Below the pieces are notes generated by a model that saw only the letters and a list, made by a program, of their open reading frames with translations, searched no databases and was not told the DNA's origin. From the NCBI GenBank assembly GCA_018057825.1, contig JAGPCY010000008.1:199596-253532 (forward strand): a stretch of 53,937 bases of DNA. The letters are read 5' to 3'. Origin of the DNA: Kofleriaceae bacterium (GTDB taxonomy: Bacteria > Myxococcota_A > Polyangia > Haliangiales > Haliangiaceae). The position numbers and the translations under genes were made by a program. Shown in pieces: positions 25,354 to 41,800 of this stretch; position 1 is the first letter of the stretch; every line of letters begins with the position of its first letter.

Positions 25354-26120
25354 AGGTGTCCTCTAGATCGGGGGGGCGCGTCAGCACGGGCGATGGCCGC
25401 GCGCGCGCCCGACGGCAGCGCGACCAGCTCGAACTCGGTGTCGTAGGTCAGGGCCAGGTGGCCCTCGGTCACTCGCCGCGGCGGCACGCACGCGATCAGG
25501 CGGCCGTGGGCGAGGAGCGCGATGCGATCGGCGTAGGCCAGGGCGAGGGTCAGCTCGTGCAGCACCACCACCACCGCGTGGCCGAGGTCGGCGGCGCGGC
25601 GCGCCAGCGCCATGACCCGGTGCTGCTGCCGCGGATCGAGGGCGGCGGTGGGCTCGTCGAGAAACAGCGCGCGGTCACCGCCGTCGCCGAGCTGCGCCAG
25701 GACCCGCGCGAGCTGGACCCGGCGCTGCTCGCCGCCCGACAAGGTCGGATACAGGCGCTCGCCCAGCCCGTCGAGCCCGACCGCGGCCAGCGCCCGCGCG
25801 CGCGCCGCTGCGTCGACCGCGCCGCCGAGGGCGATCACCTCGGCGACCGTGAAGGCCGCCGTGAGCCGCGGCCGCTGGGGCAAGAAGGCGCGGCGCGCCG
25901 CCAAGCGCGCCGGCCCGAGGTCGTGCGGCGAGGTCCCGGCCAGGGACGCGACCCCCGAGGTCGGTCGGCGATCCCCGCCCAGCACCGCCAGGAGCGTCGA
26001 CTTGCCGGCGCCGTTGGGCCCGGCCAGCACGACCAACTCGCCGGCCTCGACGGTCAGCGACACCTGGTCGAGCAAGCGACGGTCGCCGATCGCGACGGAC
26101 ACCTCGCGGGCGGCGATCAC
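25350..26120 (-). CDS. hmuV: Heme ABC transporter ATP-binding protein HmuV
   Basis: A 256-aa ATPase that powers heme import across the inner membrane. Walker A (GPNGAGKST), signature (LSGGEQRRVQLARVLAQL), Walker B (RALFLDEPTAALDP) and the H-loop (VVLHELTLAL) are all present. The signature begins LSGGE, as in other heme/siderophore transporters. The GTG start at 26120 overlaps the permease stop by four bases (GTGA). It is followed with another 4-bp overlap by an HmuY-like gene. Confidence 0.94.
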   Translation of the reverse strand: MIAAREVSVAIGDRRLLDQVSLTVEAGELVVLAGPNGAGKSTLLAVLGGDRRPTSGVASLAGTSPHDLGPARLAARRAFLPQRPRLTAAFTVAEVIALGGAVDAAARARALAAVGLDGLGERLYPTLSGGEQRRVQLARVLAQLGDGGDRALFLDEPTAALDPRQQHRVMALARRAADLGHAVVVVLHELTLALAYADRIALLAHGRLIACVPPRRVTEGHLALTYDTEFELVALPSGARAAIARADAPPRSRGHL

Positions 26121-27154
26121 GCGGCCCCTCGCGCGCGGGCGATCGCGATCAGGACCGGCGCCCCGACCAGCGCGGTCACAATGCCGATCGGCAGCTCCGC
26201 CGGTGCCACCACCGTGCGCGAGACCAGATCGGCCGCGACCAGGAGACCACCGCCGGCCACGGCGCTGACGATCACCAGCGCGCGGTGGCGTGGACCGATC
26301 AGCCCCCGGACGACGTGCGGCACGAGCAGGCCGACGAACCCGATCGCGCCACACGCCGCGACCACCGCGCCGGTCGCCAGCGCGATCGCCAGCGCGGCCT
26401 GGCGGCGCAGCCGTTCGACGTCGACCCCGGTGTGCCGCGCTTCGGCCTCGCCAAGCAGCAAGCGATCGAGGGCCGCAGCCTGACGCCACGCGACCGCCAG
26501 GGTCACGGCGGCCGCCACCGCCACCGGGACCACCAGGACCCAGCGCGCGCCGCCCAGGCTGCCCATCGACCAGAAGGTCACGGAGCGAAGCTGGGCGTCG
26601 TCGGCGACGAACAAGAGCAGGCCAGTGGCCGCGCCCGACACCGCGGCTACCCCGACGCCGATCAAGACCAGGGTCGCGCTGCCAGCGCTCCGCCGCGCGA
26701 GGGCCAGGATGAGCGCCGTGGTGGCCAGCGCGCCGAGGAACGCCGCGACCGGGACCAGGAACGGCACCACCGCCGCCGGCGCGCGCGCCACCAGCGGATC
26801 GCCCAGGACGATGAACCCGACCGCGGCCACCGCGGCGCCGTTGCTGACGCCGAGCAGCCCCGGCTCGGCCAGCGGGTTGCGGGTCAACGCCTGCATCAGC
26901 GCGCCGGCGACCGCCAGCGCCGCGCCTGCGGTCAACGCCAGCGCGATGCGCGGCAGGCGCAGCGTCCACACGATCACGTCGTCGCGGCGCGCGCCGTCGA
27001 GGTCGAGGCCCAGCCCACGCCCGAGCGCCGCGACGACCTGGCCGGGGGTCAGCGTCACCGCGCCGACGAGACACGCGACCAGCGCCAGCGCCACCACCGC
27101 CGCCGCCAGACCGGCGGTCAAGCGGGTCGGGGCGATCCGCCGCGCCGCGATCAC
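26117..27154 (-). CDS. hmuU: Heme ABC transporter permease HmuU (FecCD family)
   Basis: A 345-aa permease of the FecCD/BtuC family with about ten membrane helices. Family landmarks are RLPRIALALTAGAALAVAGA, LMQALTRNPLAEPGLLGVSNGA and, near the end, GFVGLLVPHVVRGLIGPRHR, the region that contacts the ATPase. The GTG start at 27154 overlaps hmuT by four bases, and its own stop overlaps hmuV in the same way, so subunit ratios are probably set by coupled translation. Confidence 0.94.
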   Translation of the reverse strand: MIAARRIAPTRLTAGLAAAVVALALVACLVGAVTLTPGQVVAALGRGLGLDLDGARRDDVIVWTLRLPRIALALTAGAALAVAGALMQALTRNPLAEPGLLGVSNGAAVAAVGFIVLGDPLVARAPAAVVPFLVPVAAFLGALATTALILALARRSAGSATLVLIGVGVAAVSGAATGLLLFVADDAQLRSVTFWSMGSLGGARWVLVVPVAVAAAVTLAVAWRQAAALDRLLLGEAEARHTGVDVERLRRQAALAIALATGAVVAACGAIGFVGLLVPHVVRGLIGPRHRALVIVSAVAGGGLLVAADLVSRTVVAPAELPIGIVTALVGAPVLIAIARARGAA

Positions 27155-28062
27155 GGCGCGCCCGCCAGCGCACCGTCGAGGGTCGCGATCGCCTCGGGCA
27201 GCCGGGGGCCGAAGCCCAGGAGCAGCTGGTCGTCGACGGCCACCACGCGCTGCGCCTGACCGGCCGGGGTCTCGGCCATGCCGGGCAACGCCAGCACACC
27301 GGCGGTGCCGCCGAGGAGCGCGTGGACCCGCGCCGGTACGACGATCGCGTCGGGGCGAGCGGCGACGATGGCCTCGGCAGTGAGCGGCCGATAGCCCGAC
27401 CAGGCCGTGATCGCCGAGGTCGCACCGACCAGGCCGAGCATCGCCACCGCCGCGGTGTCGCGCCCAGCGACCATCGGTGCGCCGGCACCGCGCGCGTACA
27501 GGAACAGCACGCGCCCCGAGGGCGCCGCCGCCGCCGCCGCCGCTGCCGCGCTGTCGGCCGCGACTCGCTCGGCGAGCGCGTCGGCCGGACCGGGCTCGCC
27601 GATCGCGCGACCGATCGCGCGGATCCGATCGGCGGCGCTGACCACCGTGTCGGCCGGCGGCAACAGCTCGACCCGAACGCCGGCCGCGCGCAAGGCTTCG
27701 ATGGTTGCCGGTGGGCCAGCGTCGGCGCTGGCCACCACCAGCTCGGGATCGAGCGCCAGCAGGCCCTCGGCCGACAGCGCGCGCTGATAGCCCACCTTCG
27801 GGAGCGCAGCGACCGCGGCTGGATACGTGCTGGTGACATCGACCGCGATCACCCGCCCACCCGCGCCGAGGGCGAACACCGCCTCGGTCACCGGCCCGCC
27901 GATCGTGACGATCCGCGCCGGCCGCGCGCCCGCACCGTGCCGCGCCTCGTCGCTGGCCCGCGCGCACGCGAACGCGCCGAGCACGGCCAGGCTGACCGCC
28001 GCGGCGATGCCAGGGGTCGCCGACGTCGGCAGCATCGGCCGACCGCGGTCACCCCTGACCAT
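27151..28062 (-). CDS. hmuT: Heme ABC transporter substrate-binding protein HmuT
   Basis: A 303-aa periplasmic binding protein for heme. It has an N-terminal signal (AAAVSLAVLGAFACARA), the core strand RIVTIGGPVTEAVFALGAG, and the HmuT/ChuT signature VGYQRALSAEGLLALDPELV. The preceding TSTYPAAVAALP supplies the Tyr that commonly coordinates heme iron. The start at 28062 gives a 14-bp overlap with the preceding hmuS; an ATG at 28035 is an alternative. A longer upstream reading runs through hmuS and is rejected. Confidence 0.92.
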   Translation of the reverse strand: MVRGDRGRPMLPTSATPGIAAAVSLAVLGAFACARASDEARHGAGARPARIVTIGGPVTEAVFALGAGGRVIAVDVTSTYPAAVAALPKVGYQRALSAEGLLALDPELVVASADAGPPATIEALRAAGVRVELLPPADTVVSAADRIRAIGRAIGEPGPADALAERVAADSAAAAAAAAAPSGRVLFLYARGAGAPMVAGRDTAAVAMLGLVGATSAITAWSGYRPLTAEAIVAARPDAIVVPARVHALLGGTAGVLALPGMAETPAGQAQRVVAVDDQLLLGFGPRLPEAIATLDGALAGAP

Positions 28063-29143
28063 GGCGGACCTCCGCCAGGTGACCGAGCAAGGACGCCCAG
28101 CCCGGATCCTCGGTCGCCCCGCGGTCGTCGCGTTGCGAGAACACCAGCGCGATGACCTCACCGGCGGCATCGAACAGCTCGAGCGACGTCACCGGCCCGG
28201 CCGAGGTCGGCTTGGTGACCACCCAGGCATGGGCGATCAACTCCTCGCGCAGGTGCAGGTTGAAGGCCGGGTCGAGCACGTTCAGCCAGCGGTCGATCCG
28301 CCGGATCCGCACCACCGGACCGCTGTGGATCTGGATGCAGCCGCGGTTGCCGACGAAGATCATGATGGGCCGCGCGGTCTCACTGGCGTCCCCGAGGACG
28401 ATGGCCAGCGCCTGCGCCGACACCTGCCGGGCGCGCCGGCCGCCGGCCAGGCGAAGCGCCTGGGTCCGGGTCACGCCGTGGCGGCGCAACATCGGGAAGA
28501 ACTCGTGGGTGTCGGTCAGCGCGTCCCAGTCGCGAGCGAGCGCGGCCGTGTCGACCTCGGCGTCGGGGCGAGCCTCGGCGCTCACCGCCGGCGCCAGGTC
28601 CAAGGTCGGCGCGGTGGCCGCGGCACGCGCCGCGATCAGCGCCTCCCAGGCCGACCGATCACCGTCGGGCTCGAGGTAGACCTTGTGGATCGCGGTGCCG
28701 GCGCCGTCGAACACCTGGATGCTGCGGCGCACGCCATCGGGTCGGCGCGGGTCCCCCTCGGCGATCGCCAGCGCGTAGCGCCAGTGCGTCAGGAACACCC
28801 GCAGATCGATCGCCTCGCCGTGGACCAGGCCGGCCCCGGGCGCCAGCTCGACCCCGCCGTAGCGCCCGCGCACCTCACTCACCGCGGCCGGGTTGCGCGT
28901 GAGCGCCATGCACCGCCCGACCGCCGGCAGGCCGTGAAGCAGGGCCGCGAGATCGCCATCGAGCCAGCGCGCGGTCGCGCCGACCTGGGTGGCCGCGAGC
29001 TCCAGCTCACTGACCCCGAGAGCATCCGCGGCGTCGCGGACGCGTAGGCTCGGCTGCGCGGCGCGCAGGTCGGCCCAGCGCCGGGCCAGGGTCGAGGGAT
29101 CGTGGCGCCGCGGATCGTCGACGGCGGTGGCGAAGAAGGTCAT
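28049..29143 (-). CDS. hmuS: Hemin-degrading/transfer factor HmuS (HemS/ChuS family)
   Basis: A 364-aa cytoplasmic protein that binds incoming heme and degrades or passes it on. The family's two-fold repeated structure is visible: an N-half with the VSELELAATQVG segment and CMALTRNPAAVSEVRGRY, and a C-half with HEFFPMLRRHGVTRTQALRL. The C-half ends with VGNRGCIQIHSGPVVRI, which is the strongly conserved block of HemS proteins, and LNVLDPAFNLHLRE. Length is typical (about 340-360). It starts one base after the preceding gene's stop, within the operon. Confidence 0.94.
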   Translation of the reverse strand: MTFFATAVDDPRRHDPSTLARRWADLRAAQPSLRVRDAADALGVSELELAATQVGATARWLDGDLAALLHGLPAVGRCMALTRNPAAVSEVRGRYGGVELAPGAGLVHGEAIDLRVFLTHWRYALAIAEGDPRRPDGVRRSIQVFDGAGTAIHKVYLEPDGDRSAWEALIAARAAATAPTLDLAPAVSAEARPDAEVDTAALARDWDALTDTHEFFPMLRRHGVTRTQALRLAGGRRARQVSAQALAIVLGDASETARPIMIFVGNRGCIQIHSGPVVRIRRIDRWLNVLDPAFNLHLREELIAHAWVVTKPTSAGPVTSLELFDAAGEVIALVFSQRDDRGATEDPGWASLLGHLAEVRHGQG

Positions 29144-29144
29144 G

Positions 29145-29726
29145 TCATGGTCCGATCTGCTGCCAGCGCAGCGTGAGGACGCCGCTGGTGCCGGCGGCGT
29201 CGTAGTAGTCGTCGATCACCAGCTTCCAGACCGTGGCGTCGACACGGAGCGCCCACACCCTCGGGCGGGGCGCGAGCAGATGCGTCGCGACGTCGTAGGC
29301 GTACCAGCCGTCGCCTTGGTGGAACGCGTAGTCGGGCTCGGCGTCTGCGTCGTCACCGTCGGCGCGATCGCGGGTCCAGCCGTCGGCCGGCGGCGCGTCG
29401 AGCGTGGCCAGGGCGCCGGGGCGGGCTGACACCTCGACGCCGCGGTCGCCGCTGACCCCGCCGTTGGTCTTGATGTGAAAGCGCCGAAAGGCCAGGTCCC
29501 ACGGGCCGTCGCTGGGGGTGGCCGTGCCGGTCGCCAGCGCCAGATACGTCCAGCGCTCGACGTCGGTCGCGTCGATCCGCGTGGTGGCTACGCCGTCGGC
29601 GCCGATCACGGTCACCACGGGACCGGTGGCGCCCGCGTCGACCTCGACCGCCGGCTCGATCGACGGCGCGCAGGCGGCGAGCCCGACACCGAGCGCGCCG
29701 AGCGCGGCGAAGCGGAGCGCGCTCAT
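29145..29726 (-). CDS. hmuY: HmuY-like heme-binding lipoprotein
   Basis: A 193-aa lipoprotein (lipobox GVGLAAC) with the HmuY fold: TDVERWTYLALATG, PWDLAFRRFHIKTNGGVSG, then GWYAYDVATHLLAPRPRVWA and a final VTLRWQQIG-like strand. Heme-ligand histidines may be those in RFHIK or THLL, by analogy only. The ATG overlaps the stop of the TonB receptor gene by four bases, the same order (receptor then HmuY) as in other hmu loci reversed. It is shorter than the HmuY-like protein at 24625, which carries an extra Asp/Ala-rich linker. Confidence 0.9.
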   Translation of the reverse strand: MSALRFAALGALGVGLAACAPSIEPAVEVDAGATGPVVTVIGADGVATTRIDATDVERWTYLALATGTATPSDGPWDLAFRRFHIKTNGGVSGDRGVEVSARPGALATLDAPPADGWTRDRADGDDADAEPDYAFHQGDGWYAYDVATHLLAPRPRVWALRVDATVWKLVIDDYYDAAGTSGVLTLRWQQIGP

Positions 29727-31636
29727 CGCTCGACCTCGAGGGCGAGGTAGTAGGTCGCCGGCGCCAGGCGATCGAGGTCGGCGTCGCCGGCCCCGAGCAG
29801 GTTGTCGCCGCCGACCGCCAGCTCGAAGCCGGCCGCGAACCGTCGCGCCACCCGCGCCCGCAGCTCGACCCGCGCCGCCGCGACCGGGGCGGCCGCGTCG
29901 ACGCCGTAGCGCCGGGAGCCAGTCGCGACCGCCTCGATCGCCGCGCTCAGGCCGTCGGCGGGATCGTGCCAGCGCGCCGCGAGCTGACCGCGATGCCGCG
30001 GCTGGCCCTCGAGGGCCGCGCCGGTCTCGGGGTCCCGCGACCAACCGTAGGCGTAGCCGACCTCGAGGCCGAACCGGCCGCGGCCCCAGCCGACCGCGAG
30101 CTCGCCACCCGCGGTGTAGGCGCGCCCGACGTTGGCGTAGCGAAACTCGGTTGCGGCGCCGGGCATCGCCGGCTCGGCGCGCGCAGTGATCAGGTCGGTC
30201 AGCGCGGTCGCGTAGCCGCTGGCCATCGCGGCCCAAGCTCCGGTCCGCCACTCGAGCGCGACCTGCAGCGAGCGCGCGAGCTCGGGCCGCAGCCCCGGGT
30301 TGCCCAGGACGACGTAGCCGGCGCCCGGGTTCTCGAAGCGCAGGAGCTGCTCCTTGAACGACGGCGCGCGGTAGCCCAGGCCGACGCTGCCGCGCGCGAT
30401 CATCGCCGGGGTCACGTCCCAGCGCGCGGCGAGCCGCGGCGTCGCGTGCCAGCCGAACTGCTGATCCACGTCGACGCGCGCCGCTGGCGCCAACAGGACC
30501 GCGCCCCCGTCGCCGAGCCGCCACTCGTCTTGCAGCCACAGCGCCGCGCGGTGATTGCGCCCGGCGCCGGTCAGCCGCTCGGTGGTCAAGCCCTCGCGGG
30601 CCAGCGCCGCGCCGCCGCTCACCAGGTGACGAGCCGCGATCCGCCGCTCGAGCTGGACCATCCCGTCGATCAGGTGCTCGCGGGTGTCCTGGTACTGATC
30701 GAGGCTGGCGCCGCCGCGCTGATCGTGGGCGAACTGATCGCGGTAGGTGCTGACCGCCAGCGTCGCCGCCACCCGCGTGCCCAGGCCAGCGCGGGCCGCG
30801 GTGAGCTGACCGCCCGCGACCTCGACCCGATTGTGGCGATCCAGGACCGCGCCGCCGGCCGCCGCTTCAACGCTGCGCAGGTCGCGGTACTGGTACCCAG
30901 CGTCGAGCTCGAGGCGCCAATCCGCCGCCAGCCCCACCCGGGCGCGGCCATCGACCTGGGCGTCGTCGAAGGCGGCGATCGTCGTCGCGGGATCGGCGAC
31001 GCCGCGATCGATCGCTGGGGCCTGGGCCCAGCGCACCGCCAGCGATCCCGCGACCGCGGCTGTGCCACCTGCGATCGCGCCCCGGGCCTCGCTGCCGCCG
31101 CGATGATCGGCGCGCGCGGCGAGCGTGACGCGCTCGGCGTCGACCGCGCGGGTCCGCAGGTTGATCACCCCGGCGATCGCATCGGCGCCGTAGGTCACCG
31201 CGCCCGGTCCACGCACGACCTCGATGGCGTCGAGCTCCGAGGTCGCGAAGCGATCGAGATCGATCGCGCCGTCGACCCGGCCGACTTGCCGCCGTCCGTC
31301 GATCAAGATCACGACGTACTCCGGCCCGAGCCCTTGCAACGATGGCGCCGCACCACCACGTCCGCGGTCGATCCACACCCCGGGGCGACCCGCGAGGGCC
31401 GCGGTCGCCGTCGTCGCCCCGGTGGCGCGGAGGGCCTCGCGATCGATCTGCTCGGTCGCGACCGGGCCCGGCGCCAGCCGCCCTGCAGGGCGTTCGTCCT
31501 CGATGATGATCACCTCGTCGGGGGCTCGCTCGATCGGCGGCTCGGGAGCCTCGGCGGGCGCGCTCTGCCCCTCGGCACGCGCCACCCCGAGCAGCGTGCA
31601 GGCGACCAGGGCGGCCGTGCGGTGCGGGGGCGTCAT
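29723..31636 (-). CDS. hmuR: TonB-dependent heme receptor (HmuR-like)
   Basis: A 637-aa outer-membrane receptor, first gene of the seven-gene heme operon. It has a signal peptide, a short TonB-box-like stretch after the linker (DEVIIIEDERP), a plug domain (about 50-165, with VVRGPGAVTYGADAIAGVINL) and a 22-strand barrel. The hemin-receptor landmark YRAP (in GLGYRAPSFKEQLL) and NPGLRPE (NPNL type) are present and place it with heme receptors. The start is 31636; the Fur box begins five bases upstream of it, so translation may begin from a very short or absent leader. Confidence 0.92.
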   Translation of the reverse strand: MTPPHRTAALVACTLLGVARAEGQSAPAEAPEPPIERAPDEVIIIEDERPAGRLAPGPVATEQIDREALRATGATTATAALAGRPGVWIDRGRGGAAPSLQGLGPEYVVILIDGRRQVGRVDGAIDLDRFATSELDAIEVVRGPGAVTYGADAIAGVINLRTRAVDAERVTLAARADHRGGSEARGAIAGGTAAVAGSLAVRWAQAPAIDRGVADPATTIAAFDDAQVDGRARVGLAADWRLELDAGYQYRDLRSVEAAAGGAVLDRHNRVEVAGGQLTAARAGLGTRVAATLAVSTYRDQFAHDQRGGASLDQYQDTREHLIDGMVQLERRIAARHLVSGGAALAREGLTTERLTGAGRNHRAALWLQDEWRLGDGGAVLLAPAARVDVDQQFGWHATPRLAARWDVTPAMIARGSVGLGYRAPSFKEQLLRFENPGAGYVVLGNPGLRPELARSLQVALEWRTGAWAAMASGYATALTDLITARAEPAMPGAATEFRYANVGRAYTAGGELAVGWGRGRFGLEVGYAYGWSRDPETGAALEGQPRHRGQLAARWHDPADGLSAAIEAVATGSRRYGVDAAAPVAAARVELRARVARRFAAGFELAVGGDNLLGAGDADLDRLAPATYYLALEVER

Positions 31637-31732: not shown

Positions 31733-33256
31733 GTGCCGAAGGAGAAGCCGTGGTGGAAGCGCGCCGCCGACCCGGTCGCCGCCCCACCGTCTACGCCCCC
31801 GCTGTCTACGCCGCCGACGGCGACGCCCCCGACGGCGACCGAAGAAGAAGAAGGTGATGACGGCGGCGACGGCGACGCTGACGACGGCGACGCCCCGGCC
31901 GCCGCGGGCCCGGCCCTGGCCTCGGCGCCCGCCGCGCTCCGCGATCTCGCCGACGGCGAGACCACCACGATGGCCGGGTCGGGCGCCGCGCCCTACGTCC
32001 TGCGCAACGTCGGCGGCGTTTACTCGTGCTCGTGTCCGGCCTGGCGCAACCAAGGCGCGGCGATCGAGCGCCGCACCTGCAAGCACCTCCGCGCGCTGCG
32101 CGGCGACGCCGCCGAGACCGCCCGCACCGGGGGTCCGCCACCGCCGCGCCGCGCGTCCGGCACCTCCTCCACCGCGCCCTCCGCGAGCGCCGGCGCGCCC
32201 ACCGCCGCGGTCGCCCCGCCGATCCTCCTGGCCCACGCCTGGGATCACACGACCGATCTCTCGGGCTGGTGGATGAGCGAGAAGCTCGACGGCGTGCGCG
32301 CCTACTGGGACGGCGAGAGCTTCATCTCGCGCCTGGGCAACCGCTTCGCCGCCCCGGCGTGGTTCGCCGCCGGTCTGCCGTCGACGCCCCTCGACGGCGA
32401 GCTGTGGGCCGGCCGCAAGCAGTTCCAGCGCGCGGTGTCGATCGCGCGGCGCCAGGACGGCAGCGACGCCTGGCGCGAGCTGACCTACGTCGTCTTCGAC
32501 GCCCCCGGCCACGACGCCACCTTCGAGGAGCGCCTGGCCTACGTGCGGGCCCACGTCGAAGGCGTCCGCCCGCCCCACGCCCGCTGGCACCCCCACGATC
32601 GCTGCCGCGACCTCGACCACCTGCGCGCCGAGCTGGCCCGGGTCGAGGCCCTGGGCGGCGAGGGCCTGATGCTGCGCCAGCCCGGCTCGCGCTACGAGGT
32701 CGGTCGGTCGTGGACCCTGCGCAAGGTCAAGACCTTCCACGACGCCGAGGCCCGGGTGATCGGCCACGAGCGCGGCGCCGGCAAGCACCGCGGCCGCCTG
32801 GGCGCGCTGGTGTGCCAGCTCCCCGACGGCACCACGTTCAACGTCGGCACCGGCCTGTCGGACGCCGAGCGCGCCGCGCCACCGCCGATCGGCGCGATCA
32901 TCACCTACCGCTACCAGGAGCTGTCCAACGACGGCGTGCCGCGGTTCCCGTCCTACGTCGGCGTGCGCGACGACGTCGCGTGGCCGCCGGCCGGCGCCTC
33001 GAGCGCGCCCAGCCCGAGCCCGACCGCAACTGCACCCGCGCCCGCACCCGCCCCGCGCTTCGACGGCGACCGCCTCCTCCGCACCTTCACCCGCGGCGCC
33101 GAGCGCTGGTCGGTCGAGCTGGCCGGCCGCGCCGTCACCGTCGACGCCGACGGCGTCATCACCGTTCGCCGCTCGGACACCGCGGCCGCCGCGTGGCGCG
33201 ACGCCGAGCGACTGATCGCGGCCCAGCTCGGCCACGGGTTCACCGAGTTGAGATAG
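31733..33256 (+). CDS. SWIM zinc finger-ATP-dependent DNA ligase-WGR fusion
   Basis: A 507-aa protein. Residues 1-75 are Pro/acidic and disordered, starting VPKEKPWWKR. A SWIM zinc finger follows, CSC-x14-CKH (C99, C101, C116, H118). Residues about 165-425 are a compact ATP-dependent DNA ligase: motif I EKLDGVR with nucleophile K184, LDGELW, GEGLMLR and LRKVKTFHDAEARV, then a small OB-fold. After a Pro/Ala linker, residues about 445-507 (RTFTRGAERWSVELAG) resemble a degenerate WGR domain. The ligase has no separate N-terminal DNA-binding domain, so SWIM and WGR may provide DNA contact. The GTG at 33 bp after the last AT-rich base is the best start. It heads a four-gene cluster. Confidence 0.88.
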   Translation: MPKEKPWWKRAADPVAAPPSTPPLSTPPTATPPTATEEEEGDDGGDGDADDGDAPAAAGPALASAPAALRDLADGETTTMAGSGAAPYVLRNVGGVYSCSCPAWRNQGAAIERRTCKHLRALRGDAAETARTGGPPPPRRASGTSSTAPSASAGAPTAAVAPPILLAHAWDHTTDLSGWWMSEKLDGVRAYWDGESFISRLGNRFAAPAWFAAGLPSTPLDGELWAGRKQFQRAVSIARRQDGSDAWRELTYVVFDAPGHDATFEERLAYVRAHVEGVRPPHARWHPHDRCRDLDHLRAELARVEALGGEGLMLRQPGSRYEVGRSWTLRKVKTFHDAEARVIGHERGAGKHRGRLGALVCQLPDGTTFNVGTGLSDAERAAPPPIGAIITYRYQELSNDGVPRFPSYVGVRDDVAWPPAGASSAPSPSPTATAPAPAPAPRFDGDRLLRTFTRGAERWSVELAGRAVTVDADGVITVRRSDTAAAAWRDAERLIAAQLGHGFTELR

Positions 33257-33265
33257 GCTCGGGTC

Positions 33266-34702
33266 GTGGCTGACGGACGCACCTACCTCGAGCTGTCGGA
33301 AGCCGACGGCGGATCGCACAAGTTCTACGAGGTCATCGTCGCCGGCGCGACCCTGACCATCCGCTTCGGCCGCATCGGCGACCAGGGCCAGACCAAGGTC
33401 TCGGAGTTCCCCAGCCACGACAAGGCAGTCGCCGAGGCCACCAAGAAGCTCAACGAGAAGCGCAAGAAGGGCTACGCCGAGGCGGTCATGGGCGAGCGGC
33501 AGAAGCGCTCGATCACCCGCCGCGAGATCACCTCCAAGCCCGCCGCGCGCAACACCACGCTGGCCCCGGTGGTGTGGAAGTTCACGCCGACCTCGAGCCG
33601 GGCCTTCGGCATCTTCGTCGACGAGGCCCGCTGCTGGATGGGCAACGAGGCCGGCGAGATCTACTCCCTCGATCACGACGGCCGGGTCCTCGACAAGTTC
33701 AAGCTGCCCGACGGCGTGAAGTGCATCGTCGCCGACGACGACTGGCTCTACGCCGGCTGCGACGACGGCAAGATCTACGACCTCGGCGGCAAGGCGCCGC
33801 GAGTGGCCTACGAGATCGCGGCCGACATCGACATCTTCTGGCTCGACATCAAGGACGGCGTCCTCGGCGTGTCCGACGCCGCCGGCCACGTCGCGGTGTT
33901 CAACCACGAGGACGAGTCGCAGTGGAAGGCCAAGTCGTCGGGCGGCTCGGGCTGGATGGTCCGGTGCGACGAGACCGGCGTCTATCACGGCCACGCCGCC
34001 GGCATCACGAAGTACGACTGGGAGGACGGCACGCCGCTGTGGCACCAGGCCACCAACGGCTCGGTCATGTTCGGCTGGCAGGAAGAGTCGACGGTGTTCG
34101 CCGCCACCTCGGGCAACGTGGTCCAGCGCTTCTCGAAGCGCGGCACCGATCCCATGAGCTACCGGTGCGACGCCGCGGTGTTCTCGTGCGCCGCCGCCGA
34201 GGACGGCAAGTACGTGTTCGCCGGCGACAACTGCTCGTCGGTGTACTGCTTCGCCGAGGACGGCACCCGGCTGTGGAAGCTCAACACCGGCTGCGGCTCG
34301 GCGTTCTCGATGCAGTTCTTTCGCGGCCGACTCTACATCGTCACCACCGACGGCACCTTCGCCGTCATCGACGCCAGCGAGGCCGCGATCGCCGCGGCCC
34401 AGGCCGGCACCGTGCCCGAGGCCAAGGCCATCAAGGCGCCCAAGGTCACCGCGGTCGCCCCGACCGCCGAGGTCGAGTCGACCCGCGACGCCGGCACCGG
34501 CGTGATCGTCGAGTGCTACGCCGACGGCGGCAAGCCGCGCATCCGCCCGGTGTCGCCGGGCTACCACGCGACCTGGAACGTGCAGTTCCCCAAGGAGCTG
34601 CGTGAGGTCGGCGCCCGCTACGTCGTCGACGAGCTGCGCGAGAGCGGCGCCGGCGGCTTCTACCGCGCCCACGGGACCATCCGGAAGCTGACCGGCGCAT
34701 GA
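33266..34702 (+). CDS. WGR domain plus beta-propeller protein
   Basis: A 478-aa protein. The WGR domain (about 5-85) contains TLTIRFGRIGDQGQT, the FGRIG element corresponding to the W/F-GR core, in which PARP WGR domains hold 5'-phosphate DNA ends. Residues about 105-385 form a PQQ/WD40-like propeller with blades such as ARCWMGNEAGEIYSLDHDGR and GKYVFAGDNCSSVYCFAEDG. A C-terminal domain (about 420-478) carries PGYHATWNVQFPKELR. It has no catalytic motif and looks like a DNA-end reader plus a docking platform. It begins with GTG nine bases after the ligase gene and overlaps the next gene by four bases. Confidence 0.85.
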   Translation: MADGRTYLELSEADGGSHKFYEVIVAGATLTIRFGRIGDQGQTKVSEFPSHDKAVAEATKKLNEKRKKGYAEAVMGERQKRSITRREITSKPAARNTTLAPVVWKFTPTSSRAFGIFVDEARCWMGNEAGEIYSLDHDGRVLDKFKLPDGVKCIVADDDWLYAGCDDGKIYDLGGKAPRVAYEIAADIDIFWLDIKDGVLGVSDAAGHVAVFNHEDESQWKAKSSGGSGWMVRCDETGVYHGHAAGITKYDWEDGTPLWHQATNGSVMFGWQEESTVFAATSGNVVQRFSKRGTDPMSYRCDAAVFSCAAAEDGKYVFAGDNCSSVYCFAEDGTRLWKLNTGCGSAFSMQFFRGRLYIVTTDGTFAVIDASEAAIAAAQAGTVPEAKAIKAPKVTAVAPTAEVESTRDAGTGVIVECYADGGKPRIRPVSPGYHATWNVQFPKELREVGARYVVDELRESGAGGFYRAHGTIRKLTGA

Positions 34703-37700
34703 AGCTCATCCGCCAGACCCGGCTGGTCTTCGTCGAGGGACGCTCCGAGAAGGTCTACGAGGTCGACCTGTGCGAGGTCGGCGCCAACCAGTACGTCGTC
34801 AACTTCCGCTACGGCAAGCGCGGGGCGACGCTCAAGGATGGCTCGAAGACCGTGGCCCCGGTCAAGCGCGACGAGGCCGACCGGGTGTTCGCCAAGCTGG
34901 TGCAGTCCAAGCTCGACTCCGGCTACCTCGACGAGGCCGCGCCCCGTCCGGCCCCGGCGGTGCCCGCGCGCGTCGCGGCGCCGACCGCGCCGGCCGCCGG
35001 CGATCACCCGCGGGTCGCGCGCCTCCTCGAGCGCCTGGCCGCCACCGGCACCGCGCGCCGATGGTTCCGCAGCGGCGAGGCCAAGACCTGGCCGCTCGAG
35101 CGCGCGATCTGGCGCGCCGGTGAGCTGCGCCTGCGCGCCGCCGAGCCGCTCCTCCTGGCGCTGGTCGGCACCGCGACCTCGACCGAGCTGGCCGGCGGCG
35201 GCAAGGGCCTCCGCGACTACTGTATCGCCTGGGCCCTGGCTCGCTGCGGCTCGAGCGCGGCCCTGCCGGCCCTGACCACGCTGTACGGCAACCCGCGCTC
35301 GCCCGAGCACGTCCGGCGGATCGCCGCCGAGGCGCTCATGCGGCTGGGCGACGCCGCCTCGACCGCCGAGTTCCGCGCCCACGTCGTCAGCCAGCTCCCC
35401 GAGCCGCTGCGCGCCGCCGCCAGCGGCGACGATCCCGAGGCCATGCTGCGCGCGACCGCGGGCTTCGACTTCGAGCGCCACCCCGACGCCCTCGATCAGC
35501 TCTACCTGATCGACAGCCCGGTGGTGCGACCGGCGCTCCTCGCCGCGCTGGCGCAGGTGCCGCTGACCGGCCCGCTGTTCCGCGCGGTGCGCCACCTGTG
35601 GAAGGCCGCCGAGCTGCGCGCCGACGCCCGCGTGCTCGGCCTCCTGGCCTACCGGATCGAGACCACGCCGAGCCAGGCCGGTCGCGGCCCGCGCTACCCG
35701 TTCAACCACCGCACGCGTCGCTACCTGCGCCGGCGCGTGTGGCGCACGCTGCGCCGCCTGGGCCAGCTCGGCGATCTCGACTACACCACGCTCGCCGCCG
35801 GCGTGCTCCTCGCGGTCACCGACGCCGACGGTCGCGAGCCGCGCAGCGCCACCGACGGCCGCGGCCGACCCTTCCACTACGATCGCTTCGCGCGCTTCCT
35901 GGCGTGGAACCACATCCTGTACGGCGCCAGCGCGCGCTACCACCTGCCCAAGAACGGCAAGGCCTGGCGCCTGCGCGCGCCCCACCGCCCCGACGCGCCG
36001 CCGCCGAGCACCCGCGAGGAGGCCTTCGCGACCTTGTGGGAGCAGCGCCCGGCCGCGCTCATGCAACTGTGCGCCGAGAGCGCGTGCCTGCCGGTCCATC
36101 AGTTCGCGGCCAAGGCCCTCCTGGCCTGCCCGGCCTTCCTCGATCAGCTCGACGTCGACGACGCCGCGCTCTTGCTCGGCCGCCCCTACGATCCCACCGC
36201 CGCCGTCGGCCTGGTGGTCGCGCGCAAGCGCTACGACGAGGCCCACCCCGACCTCGCGCTCCTCGCCGCGGCCGCGTGCTCGCTCCACGGTCCGGCCCGC
36301 GAGCAAGGCCGCGCGTGGATCGATCGTCACCGCGCCGTCGCCCTCGCCGACAGCCGGCTCCTCGCGGCGCTGGTGCTGGCGCCCCACGCCGACACCCGCG
36401 GCTTCGCCCGTCAGCTCCTGGTGGCCACACCGCTGGCCCCGGCGATCGGCCAGGCCGTGCTCGGCCGGTTGATCGCCGCCCTCCTCGCCCTGGGCCCGGC
36501 CGACGACGCGATCGCCGCCGACGCCACCCGCACGATCACCTCCACCCTGACCGCGCACCTGGCCACCGCCGGCGTCGCGGTCATCCGCGATCTGCTGGCC
36601 CACCCGCTGGCCGGCGTGCAGGGCCTGGGCGCCGAGCTCCTGCTCCGCCACGACGGTCGCACCGGCCTCCTGCCGGCCGAGCTCATCCTCGCGGTCCTGC
36701 ACTCGGCCCACGCCGACGTGCGCGCGCTCGGCATGCGCCTCATCAGCGAGCAGCCCGACGACGCGCTGGCGGCGATGCCCGACCTGCTGGTGCGGCTGGG
36801 CTGCGACGGCAACGCCGACATCCGCCACGCCGCGCGACCGCTGATCGCGCGGGTGGTCGCCGCCCATCCCGAGGCCGGGCCGGCCATCGCCGCCGGTCTG
36901 ATCGAGGCGCTGATCCGCCGGCGCCTCGCCGAGGACGTGCCCAGCGACGTGCTGCGGATCGTGCGCGACGACCTGCGCGCGACCCATCCGACGATCGATC
37001 GCGACACGATCTTGCGGCTGCTCGGCTCGGGCTCGCCCCACGCCCAGGAGCTGGGCGGGCGCCTCTTGGCCACCAACCTCGGCCCGCGCGATCTGACGAT
37101 CGACGAGATCATCCCCCTGGCCAGCCACGAGATCCTGAGCGTGCGCCAGGCCGCGTGGGCCCTGTACGAGCGCGACCTCGAGCGCGTGCTGGCCGAGCTG
37201 CCGGCCGCGATCCGCATCCTCGACGCCCGGTGGGAGGACTCGCGGCAGTGGGGCTTCGCGTTCTTCCGCGGCCCGGCCTTCACGCGCGCCCACCTGACCG
37301 CCGAGGTCCTGGTCGGCGTGATCGACAGCGTGCGCCCCGACGTCATGGCCTTCGGCCGCGAGCTCCTGAGCCGCCACTTCGACGACGCCGACGGGCCGAC
37401 GCTCCTGGCCCGCCTGGCCGAGCACCCGACCTCGGCGGTCCAGCTCTTCACCACCAACTACCTCGAGCGCTTCGCCACCGGCCGCCCCGACCGCCTGCCG
37501 GCGCTGGTGCCGTACTTCGCCAGCGTCCTGTCCCGGGTCAACCACGGGCGCATCGCCAAGCAGCGGGTCCTGGCCTTCTTGGCCGCCGAGGGCAGCCGCG
37601 ACGATCGCGCCGCCGCCGTGGTCATGCCGCTCCTGTTCCGCCTGGCCGCCACTGTCTCGGTCGAGTACCGGGCCGGCGCCGTCGAGGCCATGATGACGAT

Positions 37701-37776
37701 CCATCGCGCCCGCCCCCAGGTCGCGCTGCCGATCCAGGTCCGCCCGATCCGGGTGCTCGCCGCCGGAGGCCGGTAG
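34699..37776 (+). CDS. WGR domain plus HEAT-repeat scaffold protein
   Basis: A 1025-aa protein. The N-terminal 80 residues are a WGR domain (NFRYGKRGATLKDGSKT). The rest is a long alpha-solenoid of HEAT-like repeats, for example SAALPALTTLYGNPRSPEHVR, RALGMRLISEQPDDALAAMP and LASHEILSVRQAAWALYERD. It resembles the large WGR/HEAT MolR/YehI-type proteins of Proteobacteria, whose genes sit beside SWIM-protein genes. ATGA overlap with the upstream WGR-propeller gene shows coupling, and its TAG stop overlaps the GTG of the next gene. It is probably the structural core of a complex. Confidence 0.85.
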   Translation: MKLIRQTRLVFVEGRSEKVYEVDLCEVGANQYVVNFRYGKRGATLKDGSKTVAPVKRDEADRVFAKLVQSKLDSGYLDEAAPRPAPAVPARVAAPTAPAAGDHPRVARLLERLAATGTARRWFRSGEAKTWPLERAIWRAGELRLRAAEPLLLALVGTATSTELAGGGKGLRDYCIAWALARCGSSAALPALTTLYGNPRSPEHVRRIAAEALMRLGDAASTAEFRAHVVSQLPEPLRAAASGDDPEAMLRATAGFDFERHPDALDQLYLIDSPVVRPALLAALAQVPLTGPLFRAVRHLWKAAELRADARVLGLLAYRIETTPSQAGRGPRYPFNHRTRRYLRRRVWRTLRRLGQLGDLDYTTLAAGVLLAVTDADGREPRSATDGRGRPFHYDRFARFLAWNHILYGASARYHLPKNGKAWRLRAPHRPDAPPPSTREEAFATLWEQRPAALMQLCAESACLPVHQFAAKALLACPAFLDQLDVDDAALLLGRPYDPTAAVGLVVARKRYDEAHPDLALLAAAACSLHGPAREQGRAWIDRHRAVALADSRLLAALVLAPHADTRGFARQLLVATPLAPAIGQAVLGRLIAALLALGPADDAIAADATRTITSTLTAHLATAGVAVIRDLLAHPLAGVQGLGAELLLRHDGRTGLLPAELILAVLHSAHADVRALGMRLISEQPDDALAAMPDLLVRLGCDGNADIRHAARPLIARVVAAHPEAGPAIAAGLIEALIRRRLAEDVPSDVLRIVRDDLRATHPTIDRDTILRLLGSGSPHAQELGGRLLATNLGPRDLTIDEIIPLASHEILSVRQAAWALYERDLERVLAELPAAIRILDARWEDSRQWGFAFFRGPAFTRAHLTAEVLVGVIDSVRPDVMAFGRELLSRHFDDADGPTLLARLAEHPTSAVQLFTTNYLERFATGRPDRLPALVPYFASVLSRVNHGRIAKQRVLAFLAAEGSRDDRAAAVVMPLLFRLAATVSVEYRAGAVEAMMTIHRARPQVALPIQVRPIRVLAAGGR

Positions 37777-39446
37777 TGGAGTTCCAGTACGCGTTCAAGC
37801 AGAGCTCGGCGGTGACCAACCGCGCCGACGCCACCGAGATGTCGTTCTCGCCCGACACCAAGCGCGAGCCGACCTACTTCTCGGGCGAGCTGCGCCAGGG
37901 CATCGCGTTTCGCGAGGCGATCAGCGCGCTCCACGACGTCGTGGTGTCCGACCTGCGGTGGAAGCCCAAGGACAAGACCGCGTACAAGGCGTGGGCGGCC
38001 AAGCAGGAGGATCTCGACTGGACCACGATCACCGCGCAGCGCGGCGCGGTCGCCAGTCAGCTCCGCGCGCTGCAAGACCAGCTCGCCGCGCTCTACCGCG
38101 CCTCCACCACCCGCCGCGCGCCCTTCGACCGCGCCAAGCGCACCTACTTCGACTACCTGTACCAGAAGGACCGCGACGCCTGGTTCGTCCTCGATCCGGT
38201 GATCACCGTCCACCCCGACGAGATCTTCTTCGAGTGCTTCAGCCAGGACGAGTCGTCCTACGGTCGCCTGGGCGCCAGCTACGAGGTGTTCACCAAGCTC
38301 GGCACCCACGCCTGCGGCACGACTAACATCGACTACTCGTCGGCGCTCTACGACGAGTTCCAGAAGATCCGCAGCTACAAGACCACCAAGCTCGAGGTCG
38401 ATCCCTCGGGCTTCGACGTTCAGACCACGGGCGAGGCCAGCTTCACCGAGAAGAAGATCGATCTCCCCGACTCGTGGGTCCGCGGCTTCCTCCAGGTCAA
38501 CAGCGCGATGGGCCTGCCGGCGCGGACCTTCGATCTGCACCCGATGGACGTGCACAACCTGTGCTTCGTCCTGCGCCGCCACAAGGAGAAGCGCGGCCCG
38601 CGATCGATGCGCTACTGCCTGACGCCGGGCCAGCCGGTCAAGGTGGTGTTCGACCCGTGGGGCCTCGAGGTGGTGTGCCGACGCACCGAGTACCGCGGCC
38701 CCGAGCCCGAGGAGATCCGGGTCTGGGGGCGGCGCCGCCTGCACATCCTCGAGCGGCTGATCCCGGTGGCCAACCGCTTCACCGTCCACTTACTCGGCCA
38801 GGGCCTGCCGTCGTTCTACGTGGCCGACCTGGGCGATCTCAGCTTCACCCTCGGGCTGTCGGGCTGGACCGCCAACGACTGGGCCAGCGCCGGCAACTTC
38901 GATCTGCTGGCGCCGCGCGCCGAGGTCGACGACTTCACCAAGCGCCGGGTCTTCGCCGGCCTCAAGGAGACCTGGTTCGACACCCCCGATCGGCTGGCCA
39001 CCCGGCTCGGTGTGTCGCGCGCCGCGGTCCTGGGCGCGCTCGGCGCGTGGAGCCAGGCCGGCCGGGCCATGTTCGATCTGGCCAAGGGCGTGTACCGGGT
39101 CCGCGAGCTGACCCGCGAGCCGCTGCCGATGGCGCAACTTCGCTTCGCCAACCCGCGCGAGGAGGCCGCCGATCGTCTACGCTCGGGGCGCATGACGTCG
39201 AGCGCGCGCCCGACCAGCGACGGCGGCCTGGAGCTGTCCGGCACCGTCGAGGACGGCCGGCACCGCCACGAGGTGTCGCTCACGATCGACGCCGATCAGC
39301 GGATGACGCGCGGCCAGTGCGACTGCAACTTCTTCCAGCAGAACAAGCTGTTCAAGGGCCCGTGCGAGCACCTGTTGGCTCTGCGGTTCCACCACGCCCA
39401 GCAGGCCCAGCGCGGCCAGGCCCCGCGGGCCGGCGCCGGGCGCTGA
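37776..39446 (+). CDS. SWIM zinc finger protein
   Basis: A 556-aa protein with a C-terminal SWIM motif CDC-x13-CEH (in QCDCNFFQQNKLFKGPCEHL). The larger N-terminal part is typical of SWIM proteins of the YehQ/ternary-system type: segments RGFLQVNSAMGLPARTFDLHP, PGQPVKVVFDPWGLEVVCRR and a winged-helix-like AAVLGALGAWSQAGRAMFDL. The GTG start shares its first base with the last base of the preceding TAG stop. The stop at 39446 lies only 46 bp before the retron RNA. It probably binds nucleic acid together with the WGR proteins. Confidence 0.86.
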   Translation: MEFQYAFKQSSAVTNRADATEMSFSPDTKREPTYFSGELRQGIAFREAISALHDVVVSDLRWKPKDKTAYKAWAAKQEDLDWTTITAQRGAVASQLRALQDQLAALYRASTTRRAPFDRAKRTYFDYLYQKDRDAWFVLDPVITVHPDEIFFECFSQDESSYGRLGASYEVFTKLGTHACGTTNIDYSSALYDEFQKIRSYKTTKLEVDPSGFDVQTTGEASFTEKKIDLPDSWVRGFLQVNSAMGLPARTFDLHPMDVHNLCFVLRRHKEKRGPRSMRYCLTPGQPVKVVFDPWGLEVVCRRTEYRGPEPEEIRVWGRRRLHILERLIPVANRFTVHLLGQGLPSFYVADLGDLSFTLGLSGWTANDWASAGNFDLLAPRAEVDDFTKRRVFAGLKETWFDTPDRLATRLGVSRAAVLGALGAWSQAGRAMFDLAKGVYRVRELTREPLPMAQLRFANPREEAADRLRSGRMTSSARPTSDGGLELSGTVEDGRHRHEVSLTIDADQRMTRGQCDCNFFQQNKLFKGPCEHLLALRFHHAQQAQRGQAPRAGAGR

Positions 39447-39492: not shown

Positions 39493-39727
39493 TCACGCGC
39501 GGAGCGATCAGGCGGCACATCTTGCAACCCGGACGGTGGATCGCCGTCCCTGCAACCTGGCCTGGCACGCATCACTGGCCCGTTCTTGACTGTGCGACGT
39601 CTGCCACCCCTGCGGGATACCGGTGTCAATCCCGCGTATTCCATACCCGCAGGGGTGGCGACGTCGCTTGAGTTGACCGAGCCAGTCGGAAGAGTGTTCG
39701 AAGGACCGCCTGACGCTCCGCGCGTGA
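39493..39727 (+). ncRNA. Retron msr-msd RNA
   Basis: The 235-nt region between the SWIM gene and the reverse transcriptase has the full retron layout. a1 (39493-39515) and a2 (39706-39727) pair over 22 bp with one bulged A in a1. Just inside a1 the sequence reads GGCGGCACATC, which should contain the branching G. The msr part has a hairpin GGACGG/CCGTCC (39531-39549). The msd part has a long stem: 39594-39616 pairs with 39646-39667 in 22 bp with one bulged T (39602), and within the loop 39618-39623 pairs with 39632-39638. Downstream there is a smaller CCGA/TCGG hairpin. The branch residue and msDNA length are inferred, not shown. Confidence 0.9.
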
Positions 39728-39740
39728 GCTTTTCGTAGCG

Positions 39741-41387
39741 ATGCCCGACAAGCGCCAAGAGCTGTACGAGCGCATCCGCGCCTCCTCGAAGGACGAGGTC
39801 ATCCTCGAGGAGATGATCCGGCTCGGCTTCTGGCCGGCCCAGGGTCACCTGCCCGATGACCCCGCCGACGAGATCCGGCAGCGCGCCGCGCTCGAGCAGC
39901 AGCTCGCCGCCCTGCGCACCGAGCAGGCCCGCCTGCACAACATCGAGGCGCTCAAGAAGGCCCTGCGCAAGCAGCGCCTCGAGGCCTCGAAGGCCAAGCA
40001 GCGCGAGACCAAGGAGCGGCGCGAGCGCGAGCGGGTCGCTCGGGCCGCGGCCTGGCGCGAGCACAACCAGCGCGCGATCGGCTACCTCGGGCGCGGCGTG
40101 TCGGGCGGCCTCAACCAGACCGCCGCCGATCGCGCCGCGCTGACCCGCCACGGCGCGCCGGTCCTCGAGACCGCCGCCGAGCTGGCCGCCGCGATGGGCC
40201 TCACCATCCCCCAGCTGCGCTTCCTCGCCTTCGCCCGCGCGACCTCGACCGTCAACCACTACCAGCGCTTCGCCATCCCCAAGAAGACCGGCGGCCTGCG
40301 TCGGATCTCGGCGCCCATGCCGCGGCTCAAGGCCGCCCAGCGCTGGATCCTCGATCACGTCCTGGCCGGCGTCGCGCTGCACGACGCCGCCCACGGCTTC
40401 CGCCCCGCGCGATCGATCGTCACCAACGCCGCGCCCCACGTCGGCCGCGACGTGGTCGTGAACCTCGATCTCAAGGACTTCTTCCCGACGCTCACGTATC
40501 CGCGCATCCGCGGCGTGTTCCGCGGCCTCGGCTACGGCCCCGCGGTCGCCACGATCCTCGCGCTCCTCACCAGCGAGCCCGACATCGACACCGTCGAGCT
40601 CGACGGCCAGACCTTCCACGTCGCGAGCGGCGAGCGCAAGCTGCCCCAGGGCGCGCCGACCAGCCCGATGATCACCAACATCGTGTGCCGGCGCTTCGAC
40701 GCGCGCCTGGCCGGCGCCGCCCGGAAGCTCGGGTTCACGTACACCCGCTACGCCGACGATCTGACCTTCAGCGGTCCGCGCACCGCCGACGCCGGCGCGC
40801 TCCTGTCTGCGGTGCGGATGATCGCCACCGCCGAGGGCTTCGCCGAGCACCCCGACAAGACCCGGGTCCTGCGCCGCGGCCGGCAGCAGGAGGTCACCGG
40901 CGTCGTCGTCAACCAGCGCCTCGCCGTCGATCGCGCCACCCTGCGGCGGTTCCGCGCGCTGTTGTTTCAGATCGACAAGGACGGCCCCGCCGGCAAGACC
41001 TGGAACGACGCGCCCGATCTGTTCGCGGCCATCATCGGCTACGCCCACTTCGTCCACATGGTCGACGCCACCAAGGGCGCCGCCCTCGTCGCCCAGGCCA
41101 AGGCCCTGGCCGCCCGCCACGGCTGGCGTCCTGCGCGTCGACCGCCGCCCAAGACCCGCGGTGGAAGCGGCGGCGGTGGTGGTGGTCCCGGCGGCAGCGG
41201 TCCCGGCGGCAGCGGCAGCCGCCCTGGGGAGGCGGAGCGGACGGCGACCTCGACAGGGCCCACGCCTAGCACCGAGCCAGCCCAGCCAGCCCAGCCCGGA
41301 CCTCCGGACGCACCGTCACCTCCCGACGCACCGTCGCCCGACGCGCCGCCGCCCGCGAAGAAGAAGAAGTGGTGGCAGATCTTCTGA
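39741..41387 (+). CDS. Retron reverse transcriptase
   Basis: A 548-aa retron RT that would copy the msd region into msDNA primed from the branch G of msr. Retron-specific marks are all present: NAAPH (229-233), catalytic YADD (337-340) and VTG (385-387), with LPQGAPTSP (301-309) and [10 protein letters not shown] (241-250) of the palm. The N-terminal 110 residues are a charged coiled coil ([20 protein letters not shown]), as in long myxobacterial retron RTs. From about 460 there is a Gly/Pro/Ser-rich tail ending KKKKWWQIF. No second catalytic domain is fused. The start at 39741 follows a2 by 13 bp without a good SD. Confidence 0.95.
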
Positions 41388-41404
41388 TCGTCCGGTTCGA
41401 CGGC

Positions 41405-41800
41405 TGAGACGGAGACCGAGGCGGAGACCGAGGTCGAGTCCGAGACCGAGACCGAGACCGAGGCGGAGACCGAGACCGAGGCCGAGACCGAGGCCGAGAC
41501 CGAGACCGAGGCCGAGACCGAGGCCGAGGCCGAGACCGAGGCCGAGGCCGCGTCTGAGGCCGAGACGGAGGCCGAGGCCGAGACGGAGGCCGAGGCCGAG
41601 ACGGAGGCCGAGGCCGAGACGGAGGCCGAGACCGAGGCCGAGACCGAGACCGAGGCCGAGACCGAGACCGAGGCCGAAACCGAGACCGAGGCCGAGACCG
41701 AGGCCGAGGCCGAGACCGAGGTCGAGTCCGAGACCGAGACCGAGACCGAGGCGGAGACCGAGACCGAGGCCGAGACCGAGGCCGAGGCCGAGGCCGCGCT
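41405..41800. repeat. Long hexanucleotide array (NCCGAG), between convergent genes
   Basis: About 395 bp (some 65 units) of GAGACC, GAGGCC, GAGGCG and GAGTCC hexamers fill the space from the RT stop to the convergent lipoprotein gene at 41817. It is the reverse complement type of the arrays at 17721 and 20771. Higher-order blocks recur (the GAGGTCGAGTCCGAGACCG block occurs near 41430 and 41730). Not coding. Confidence 0.93.

Follow-up and report, generated by a model that had tools for sequence, protein, structure and literature searches.

What does a DNA ligase gene do in a row of closely packed genes for proteins with WGR and SWIM domains? The question is raised by a stretch of 53,937 nucleotides from a Kofleriaceae bacterium (GenBank contig JAGPCY010000008.1, positions 199,596 to 253,532 of the forward strand; hereafter the window, whose numbering we use throughout), in which four plus-strand genes span 31733-39446 at intergenic distances of 9, -4 and -1 bp. 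A first-pass annotation had described these genes, their domains and their spacing, all of which our open reading frame (ORF) check and Pfam searches bore out, with profile-profile comparison adding the WGR domain of the ligase. It had read them as a variant of the MoxR-vWA-WGR-SWIM system that works on nicked ends. We arrived at a different answer: the locus, from a Polyangia-like myxobacterial genome, is the operon of a type XIII retron, an assignment that is well supported at the sequence level. We further propose, with a probability of roughly 0.55, that this operon encodes a clamp-organised, break-sensing system that makes DNA and seals it.

Identity of the operon and its structured RNA

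The order of the operon is ligase, WGR-propeller protein, WGR-HEAT protein, SWIM protein, non-coding RNA (ncRNA) and reverse transcriptase (RT), of which the last two had been overlooked (coordinates in Table 1). Three adjoining genes match the PADLOC type XIII models WGR_XIII, SWIM_XIII and RT_XIII, and for the RT the 606 bits obtained with RT_XIII compare with 333 bits for the next PADLOC model. The RT translation contains the motifs NAXXH (as NAAPH), YADD and VTG, and a comparison with the retron Ec86 RT in the PDB gave an E-value of 7e-38. Pfam additionally detected HEAT_2 in the WGR-HEAT protein (5e-6) and SWIM in the SWIM protein (3e-4).

The RT gene starts 294 bp 3' of the end of the SWIM gene, and the ncRNA sits in that gap. 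Folding of this intergenic RNA yielded a z-score of -8.9. Its flanking arms, a1 (39493-39506) and a2 (39714-39727), are complementary at 14 of 14 positions, and the msd forms a long hairpin with a loop, closed by 14-bp arms at 39603-39616 and 39646-39659. When 16 related loci were aligned, compensatory changes were found in 26 of the 48 ncRNA pairs. By fold and covariation, then, we identify this segment as the retron ncRNA (msr-msd). Because the three model matches are accompanied by a structured, covarying ncRNA, we assign the locus to the type XIII retrons.

Two of the four genes on which the MoxR-vWA interpretation had been built are thereby retron core genes, and a fifth encodes the RT. 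The absence of MoxR and vWA genes, which the first-pass annotation had noted, was confirmed among the cluster genes and the neighbours scanned, and neither is needed to explain the set. We therefore rejected the reading as a MoxR-vWA system without MoxR: the WGR-HEAT and SWIM proteins are specific type XIII components and stand beside RT_XIII and the ncRNA. What speaks for such a variant is a single locus (L081:231-9608), where SWIM, HEAT, MoxR (AAA_5) and DUF5682 genes come after a stand-alone SWIM-ligase-WGR gene. The ligase family thus also joins a MoxR-type cluster, a residual link that leaves the variant, in our judgement, very improbable for the window.

Recurrent linkage between DNA ligases and type XIII retrons

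For the products of the first two genes, the ligase and the WGR-propeller protein, PADLOC offers no type XIII model. The ligase consists of a SWIM finger (residues 99-118, with CxC...CxH read directly in the protein), a LigE-type core (157-414) and a degenerate WGR domain (approximately 447-507). Pfam recognised DNA_ligase_OB_2 (3e-29) and DNA_ligase_A_M (1e-6); the protein scored 333 bits against NCBIfam PRK09125 (cut-off 200) and matched LigE in the PDB (4d05) with an E-value of 4e-86. In an alignment of 30 sequences the catalytic residues K184, D186, G187, R189, E310, K331 and K333 were invariant. The core is of LigE type and, by its motifs, catalytically complete. Since SWIM and WGR domains are added to the minimal architecture, however, we do not call the protein a canonical Lig E. 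Its C-terminal WGR domain received no Pfam call and was found with hhalign at a probability of 96%; the W-G-R signature has been lost from this domain (33071-33253) in the window ligase and its close relatives, and the WGR domain of the adjoining propeller protein is canonical. The Pfam cut-off of 22 bits is far exceeded by the propeller protein (Table 1), whereas the WGR-HEAT protein, at 18.6 bits, falls below it.

To place these genes in context we mapped, with local profiles, 100 RT_XIII-like loci and three more that were reached via a ligase search; the counts below should be read with the relatedness of the genomes and the shortness of many contigs in mind. In eight genomes the retron core is accompanied by the ligase and propeller pair, in two arrangements. 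In the first, the pair lies upstream with the ligase leading, as in the window, L045 (genome G164) and L051 (G252); in L049, L072 and L183 (genomes G125, G226 and G232) the contigs end within this arrangement, and the pair is seen as far as they extend. In the second, the propeller gene comes first and the pair lies downstream of the RT, as in L037 (G010) and L047 (G028). We examined 80 ligase loci and 20 propeller loci, and a full-length propeller gene stood next to a ligase gene in retron loci only. The claim of a co-occurring set thus held, as one unit recurs in other genomes; because all four genes recur jointly, we regard the set as more than a chance assembly.

Ligases also accompany other type XIII subtypes, whose representatives likewise gave their best PADLOC scores with type XIII models. 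A subtype with a giant HEAT-ARM protein and the order SWIM-RT-WGR-ligase occurs in eight genomes of the window's family, four in its genus. A third subtype has the order WGR-PARP, Macro, HEAT, SWIM, RT, often followed by genes for an ADP-ribosylglycohydrolase and an NAD-dependent DNA ligase (L056, L060). Counted without the loci reached via the ligase search, ligases are present in 6/25 loci of the WGR-HEAT clade, 8/37 of the HEAT-ARM clade and 4/11 of the PARP clade, and in 0/19 of a fourth; linked ligases, ATP- or NAD-dependent, are therefore found in three of the four RT clades. Those of L086 and L123 are on the opposite strand and count as weak evidence. Of 59 genomes sampled evenly across the class, 11 carried the ligase family, and five of these (G000, G010, G018, G028 and G045) have the ligase in a retron locus. 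Mapped onto the RT tree, the ligase label changes 9 times, at least 6 of them forced; on the ligase tree the retron label changes 7 times, again with at least 6 forced. The linkage has therefore been gained or lost repeatedly, and that DNA ligases are associated with type XIII retrons is, in our view, well supported by these comparisons of sequence.

Could the ligase and propeller genes be mere hitchhikers, neighbours with no functional tie to the retron? Both families also exist alone, as such an account would have it. The repeated, independent linkage argues otherwise, since it comes in differing arrangements, is mostly on the same strand, and is missing from the controls: 20 windows of 19.5 kb, drawn from these genomes, contained no ligase, PARP, macro or WGR match. 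In the window, furthermore, the ligase and propeller genes are only 9 bp apart, and the propeller gene overlaps the retron core by 4 bp. We regard hitchhiking as improbable.

The PARP-bearing relatives deserve description in their own right. Unbiased clustering of neighbouring genes, combined with Pfam, delineated a type XIII clade with upstream WGR-PARP and macro-domain genes, often with ADP-ribosylglycohydrolase and NAD-dependent ligase genes nearby (L056, L060, L063, L064, L215, L219, L226 and L283); the NAD ligase lies on the other strand in L063 and L064. In L038 the order is RT, ADP-ribosylglycohydrolase, NAD ligase, WGR-PARP. As one example of fusion, we point to a metagenome-assembled genome of the Thermoanaerobaculia (L109:9995-13627), in which one ORF of 975 amino acids joins an N-terminal SWIM-type CxC finger, an ATP ligase, a WGR domain, and the PARP regulatory and catalytic domains. 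This gene is followed by a macro-domain gene and then by the type XIII retron core. The first-pass annotation had proposed action on nicked DNA or RNA ends; work on strand breaks agrees with this company of WGR, ligase and PARP genes, and the ligase has all its catalytic motifs.

Two further explanations of the accessory genes come into view here. The ligase might act on the multicopy single-stranded DNA (msDNA) itself, joining or circularising it once debranched or linking it to other ends, with the WGR proteins presenting the 5'-phosphate end. The ligase does share an operon with the ncRNA and RT, and the msd folds into a long hairpin that has a loop. ATP- and NAD-dependent ligases both occur, which suggests that what counts is ligation and not a particular protein. 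However, in the majority of type XIII loci no ligase is linked, and LigE enzymes seal nicks in duplex DNA, for which the msDNA offers no evident duplex junction; we consider this explanation unlikely, although it is the strongest of the alternatives. Somewhat less likely still is that the ligase and PARP genes are antidotes or repair genes which shield the host from breaks caused by the active retron or an effector. Accessory genes of that kind would be expected to be optional and interchangeable, as these are (ATP ligase, NAD ligase, or PARP with macro domain and ADP-ribosylglycohydrolase). Yet Pfam and PADLOC revealed no nuclease domain in the core proteins scanned, a result that does not exclude a nuclease.

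A predicted clamp fold and candidate docking peptides

The proposal that we prefer, a clamp-organised and break-sensing retron operon, draws on the predicted structure of the SWIM protein. An AlphaFold2 model built on an alignment of 40 relatives (pLDDT, the predicted local distance difference test score, 80) divides it into a PCNA-like clamp (residues 34-366), a winged helix (386-442) and a SWIM finger (505-536). Foldseek matched the model to PCNA with an E-value of 9.4e-10, and VIA aligned 232 of 245 residues with a Z-score of 21.5 and a root-mean-square deviation of 2.6. Residues 34-366 are likely to adopt the two-domain PCNA fold, an assignment made on the predicted structure.

DNA ligase 1 and polymerases bind PCNA via terminal PCNA-interacting peptide (PIP) boxes, and both the RT and the ligase of the window bear terminal candidate peptides of comparable character. 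After a long low-complexity linker, the RT closes with a tail of the form [KR]-W-(W)-[KQR]-[ILV]-[FW] (KKKWWKLF-type), which is present in 19 of 22 complete RTs of the window's clade, in none of 80 RTs of other clades, and in no non-RT ORF among approximately 10,600. The DNA pattern of the C-terminal tail occurs once in the genome, while KxWWK peptides as such are not unique, with 5 DNA matches. In one relative (L046, contig G282:C704) a stop codon falls within the tail, giving KKK*WKLF; this may be a true truncation or an assembly error, and we scored the locus as lacking the tail. In the ligases of the upstream arrangement a PWWK tag stands at the N-terminus, and it is conserved in the window's clade (L045, L051, L072) and in two relatives, L097 and L147. 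The first residues of ligases in relatives read VPKETPWWKK, VTKETPWWKR and MAREKPWWKT, and their conservation supports the start codon that we call. That the RT tail and the ligase tag both dock on the SWIM clamp is a proposal to which we give slightly less than an even chance.

From these elements we infer the following scheme. SWIM subunits would assemble into a ring, and this ring would hold either the msDNA or a target duplex. On it the RT would dock via its C-terminal KKKWW(K/Q)(L/I)F tail and the ligase via its N-terminal KPWWK tag, as polymerases and DNA ligase 1 do on PCNA with their PIP boxes. PARP WGR domains recognise 5'-phosphate ends, and by analogy the WGR domains of the operon may locate 5'-phosphorylated strand breaks. 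Synthesis of reverse-transcribed DNA and the sealing of nicks, whether made or found, could then take place on one scaffold, and its cellular purpose might be anti-phage surveillance or the repair of breaks.

Several observations weigh against this scheme. A Pfam scan of 40 SWIM family members called no PCNA family, a profile search of the PDB with hmmsearch returned no clamp among its matches, and the two halves of the predicted clamp, aligned to each other with hhalign, had no detectable sequence similarity. Because no sequence match to the PCNA families was found, we name the SWIM protein clamp-like and not a PCNA. The tails resemble PIP boxes in character and do not match the PIP consensus, and RTs of other clades lack the tail although the SWIM protein is kept. 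Many type XIII loci, including all 19 of one clade, have no linked ligase, and the ligase and propeller families are also encountered away from retrons.

More tentatively, we extend the proposal to the class as a whole: type XIII retrons may be built around a bacterial PCNA-like clamp, the SWIM protein, to which the RT is tethered together with, in many lineages, a DNA ligase and WGR or PARP break sensors. On this view a retron would be a machine that makes and seals DNA at strand breaks and has converged on the eukaryotic toolkit of PCNA, polymerase, ligase 1 and PARP1.

Genomic context, significance and comparison with known systems

The features of the operon are collected in Table 1.

Table 1. 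Features of the type XIII retron operon in the window
Feature	Position	Strand	Basis or remark
SWIM-ligase-WGR, ATP-dependent DNA ligase (accessory gene 1)	31733-33256	+	GTG start
WGR and PQQ-type beta-propeller protein (accessory gene 2)	33266-34702	+	Pfam WGR 70 bits (1e-19), PQQ_2; 9 bp after ligase
WGR-HEAT protein (retron core)	34699-37776	+	PADLOC WGR_XIII 1103 bits; 4-bp overlap with propeller gene
SWIM protein (retron core)	37776-39446	+	PADLOC SWIM_XIII 780 bits; TAGTG junction, overlap 1 bp
Retron ncRNA (msr-msd)	39493-39727	+	Fold, a1/a2 arms, msd hairpin, covariation
Retron RT	39741-41387	+	PADLOC RT_XIII 606 bits; Pfam RVT_1 5e-23
Ligase N-terminal tag PKEKPWWK, candidate clamp-binding peptide	31736-31759	+	Conserved in relatives
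RT C-terminal tail KKKKWWQIF, candidate clamp-binding peptide	41358-41384	+	Clade-specific motif

Upstream, on the minus strand, lies a divergent haem-uptake operon (TonB receptor, HemS/ChuX, periplasmic binding protein and ATP-binding cassette ATPase; 25350-31636). It has in common with the retron operon a promoter region of 96 bp with an AT-rich stretch, GATAATGAAAACTATTTTC. We searched this region for the Fur-box consensus and found none within 3 mismatches, GATAATGAAAACTATTTTC not being a formal match, and a search for a sigma-70-like site there was likewise negative. Immediately 3' of the RT gene is a tandem repeat of 395 bp (41402-41796) in units of 12, 18 and 30 bp (GGCCGAGACCGA...). 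An Rfam scan of the locus reported a Twister-sister candidate at 23.4 bits against a cut-off of 34; it lies within a coding gene and was taken as a chance match.

Retrons are usually described as an RT, an ncRNA and a toxic or hydrolytic effector, and we know of no worked-out mechanism for type XIII. In the searchable literature we found no description of a retron linked with WGR, SWIM, a macro domain, a DNA ligase, a sliding clamp or PCNA; the retron class itself is known, whereas neither the module of ligase and propeller nor the predicted clamp has been described as far as that literature extends. If our proposal is true, DNA ends would be the substrate of some retrons, which would serve in repair or would sense phage-caused damage, a view based on a core partner that is a predicted sliding clamp and on the recurrent recruitment of DNA ligases, strand-break sensors and ADP-ribose enzymes. 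Type XIII would thereby gain testable predictions (peptide-clamp binding, nick sealing, and PARP activity at breaks), and an RT tethered to a clamp, with its own ligase, may be of interest for genome editing.

Among the closest known systems is the type XIII retron as modelled in PADLOC (WGR_XIII, HEAT-ARM_XIII, SWIM_XIII and RT_XIII): the window has the RT, ncRNA, SWIM and WGR-HEAT components in equal order and on the same strand, and differs by the additional SWIM-LigE-WGR ligase and WGR-propeller protein. With MoxR-vWA and DUF5682 systems it has the domain types WGR, SWIM and HEAT in common, and the ligase family adjoins such a cluster once; the window, however, lacks MoxR and vWA and possesses an RT and ncRNA. 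The ligase resembles the minimal ATP-dependent Lig E enzymes (PDB 4d05, 8u6x and 6gdr) in its nucleotidyltransferase and OB core, with approximately 40% identity and all catalytic motifs, yet its SWIM finger, WGR domain and N-terminal tag have no counterpart in the solved minimal enzymes. Compared with PARP1-type break repair by WGR-PARP and DNA ligase, the window lacks a PARP; WGR, ligase, PARP, macro domain and ADP-ribosylglycohydrolase all occur among the relatives of its retron, in which such genes are retron cargo. Compared with PCNA, the SWIM protein is known here from a predicted monomer fold, has no sequence similarity, and adds a winged helix, a SWIM finger and a helical insert. The parallel with PCNA, DNA ligase 1 and their PIP boxes lies in a predicted two-domain clamp fold, and in a polymerase and a ligase that both bear terminal aromatic tags beside disordered linkers.

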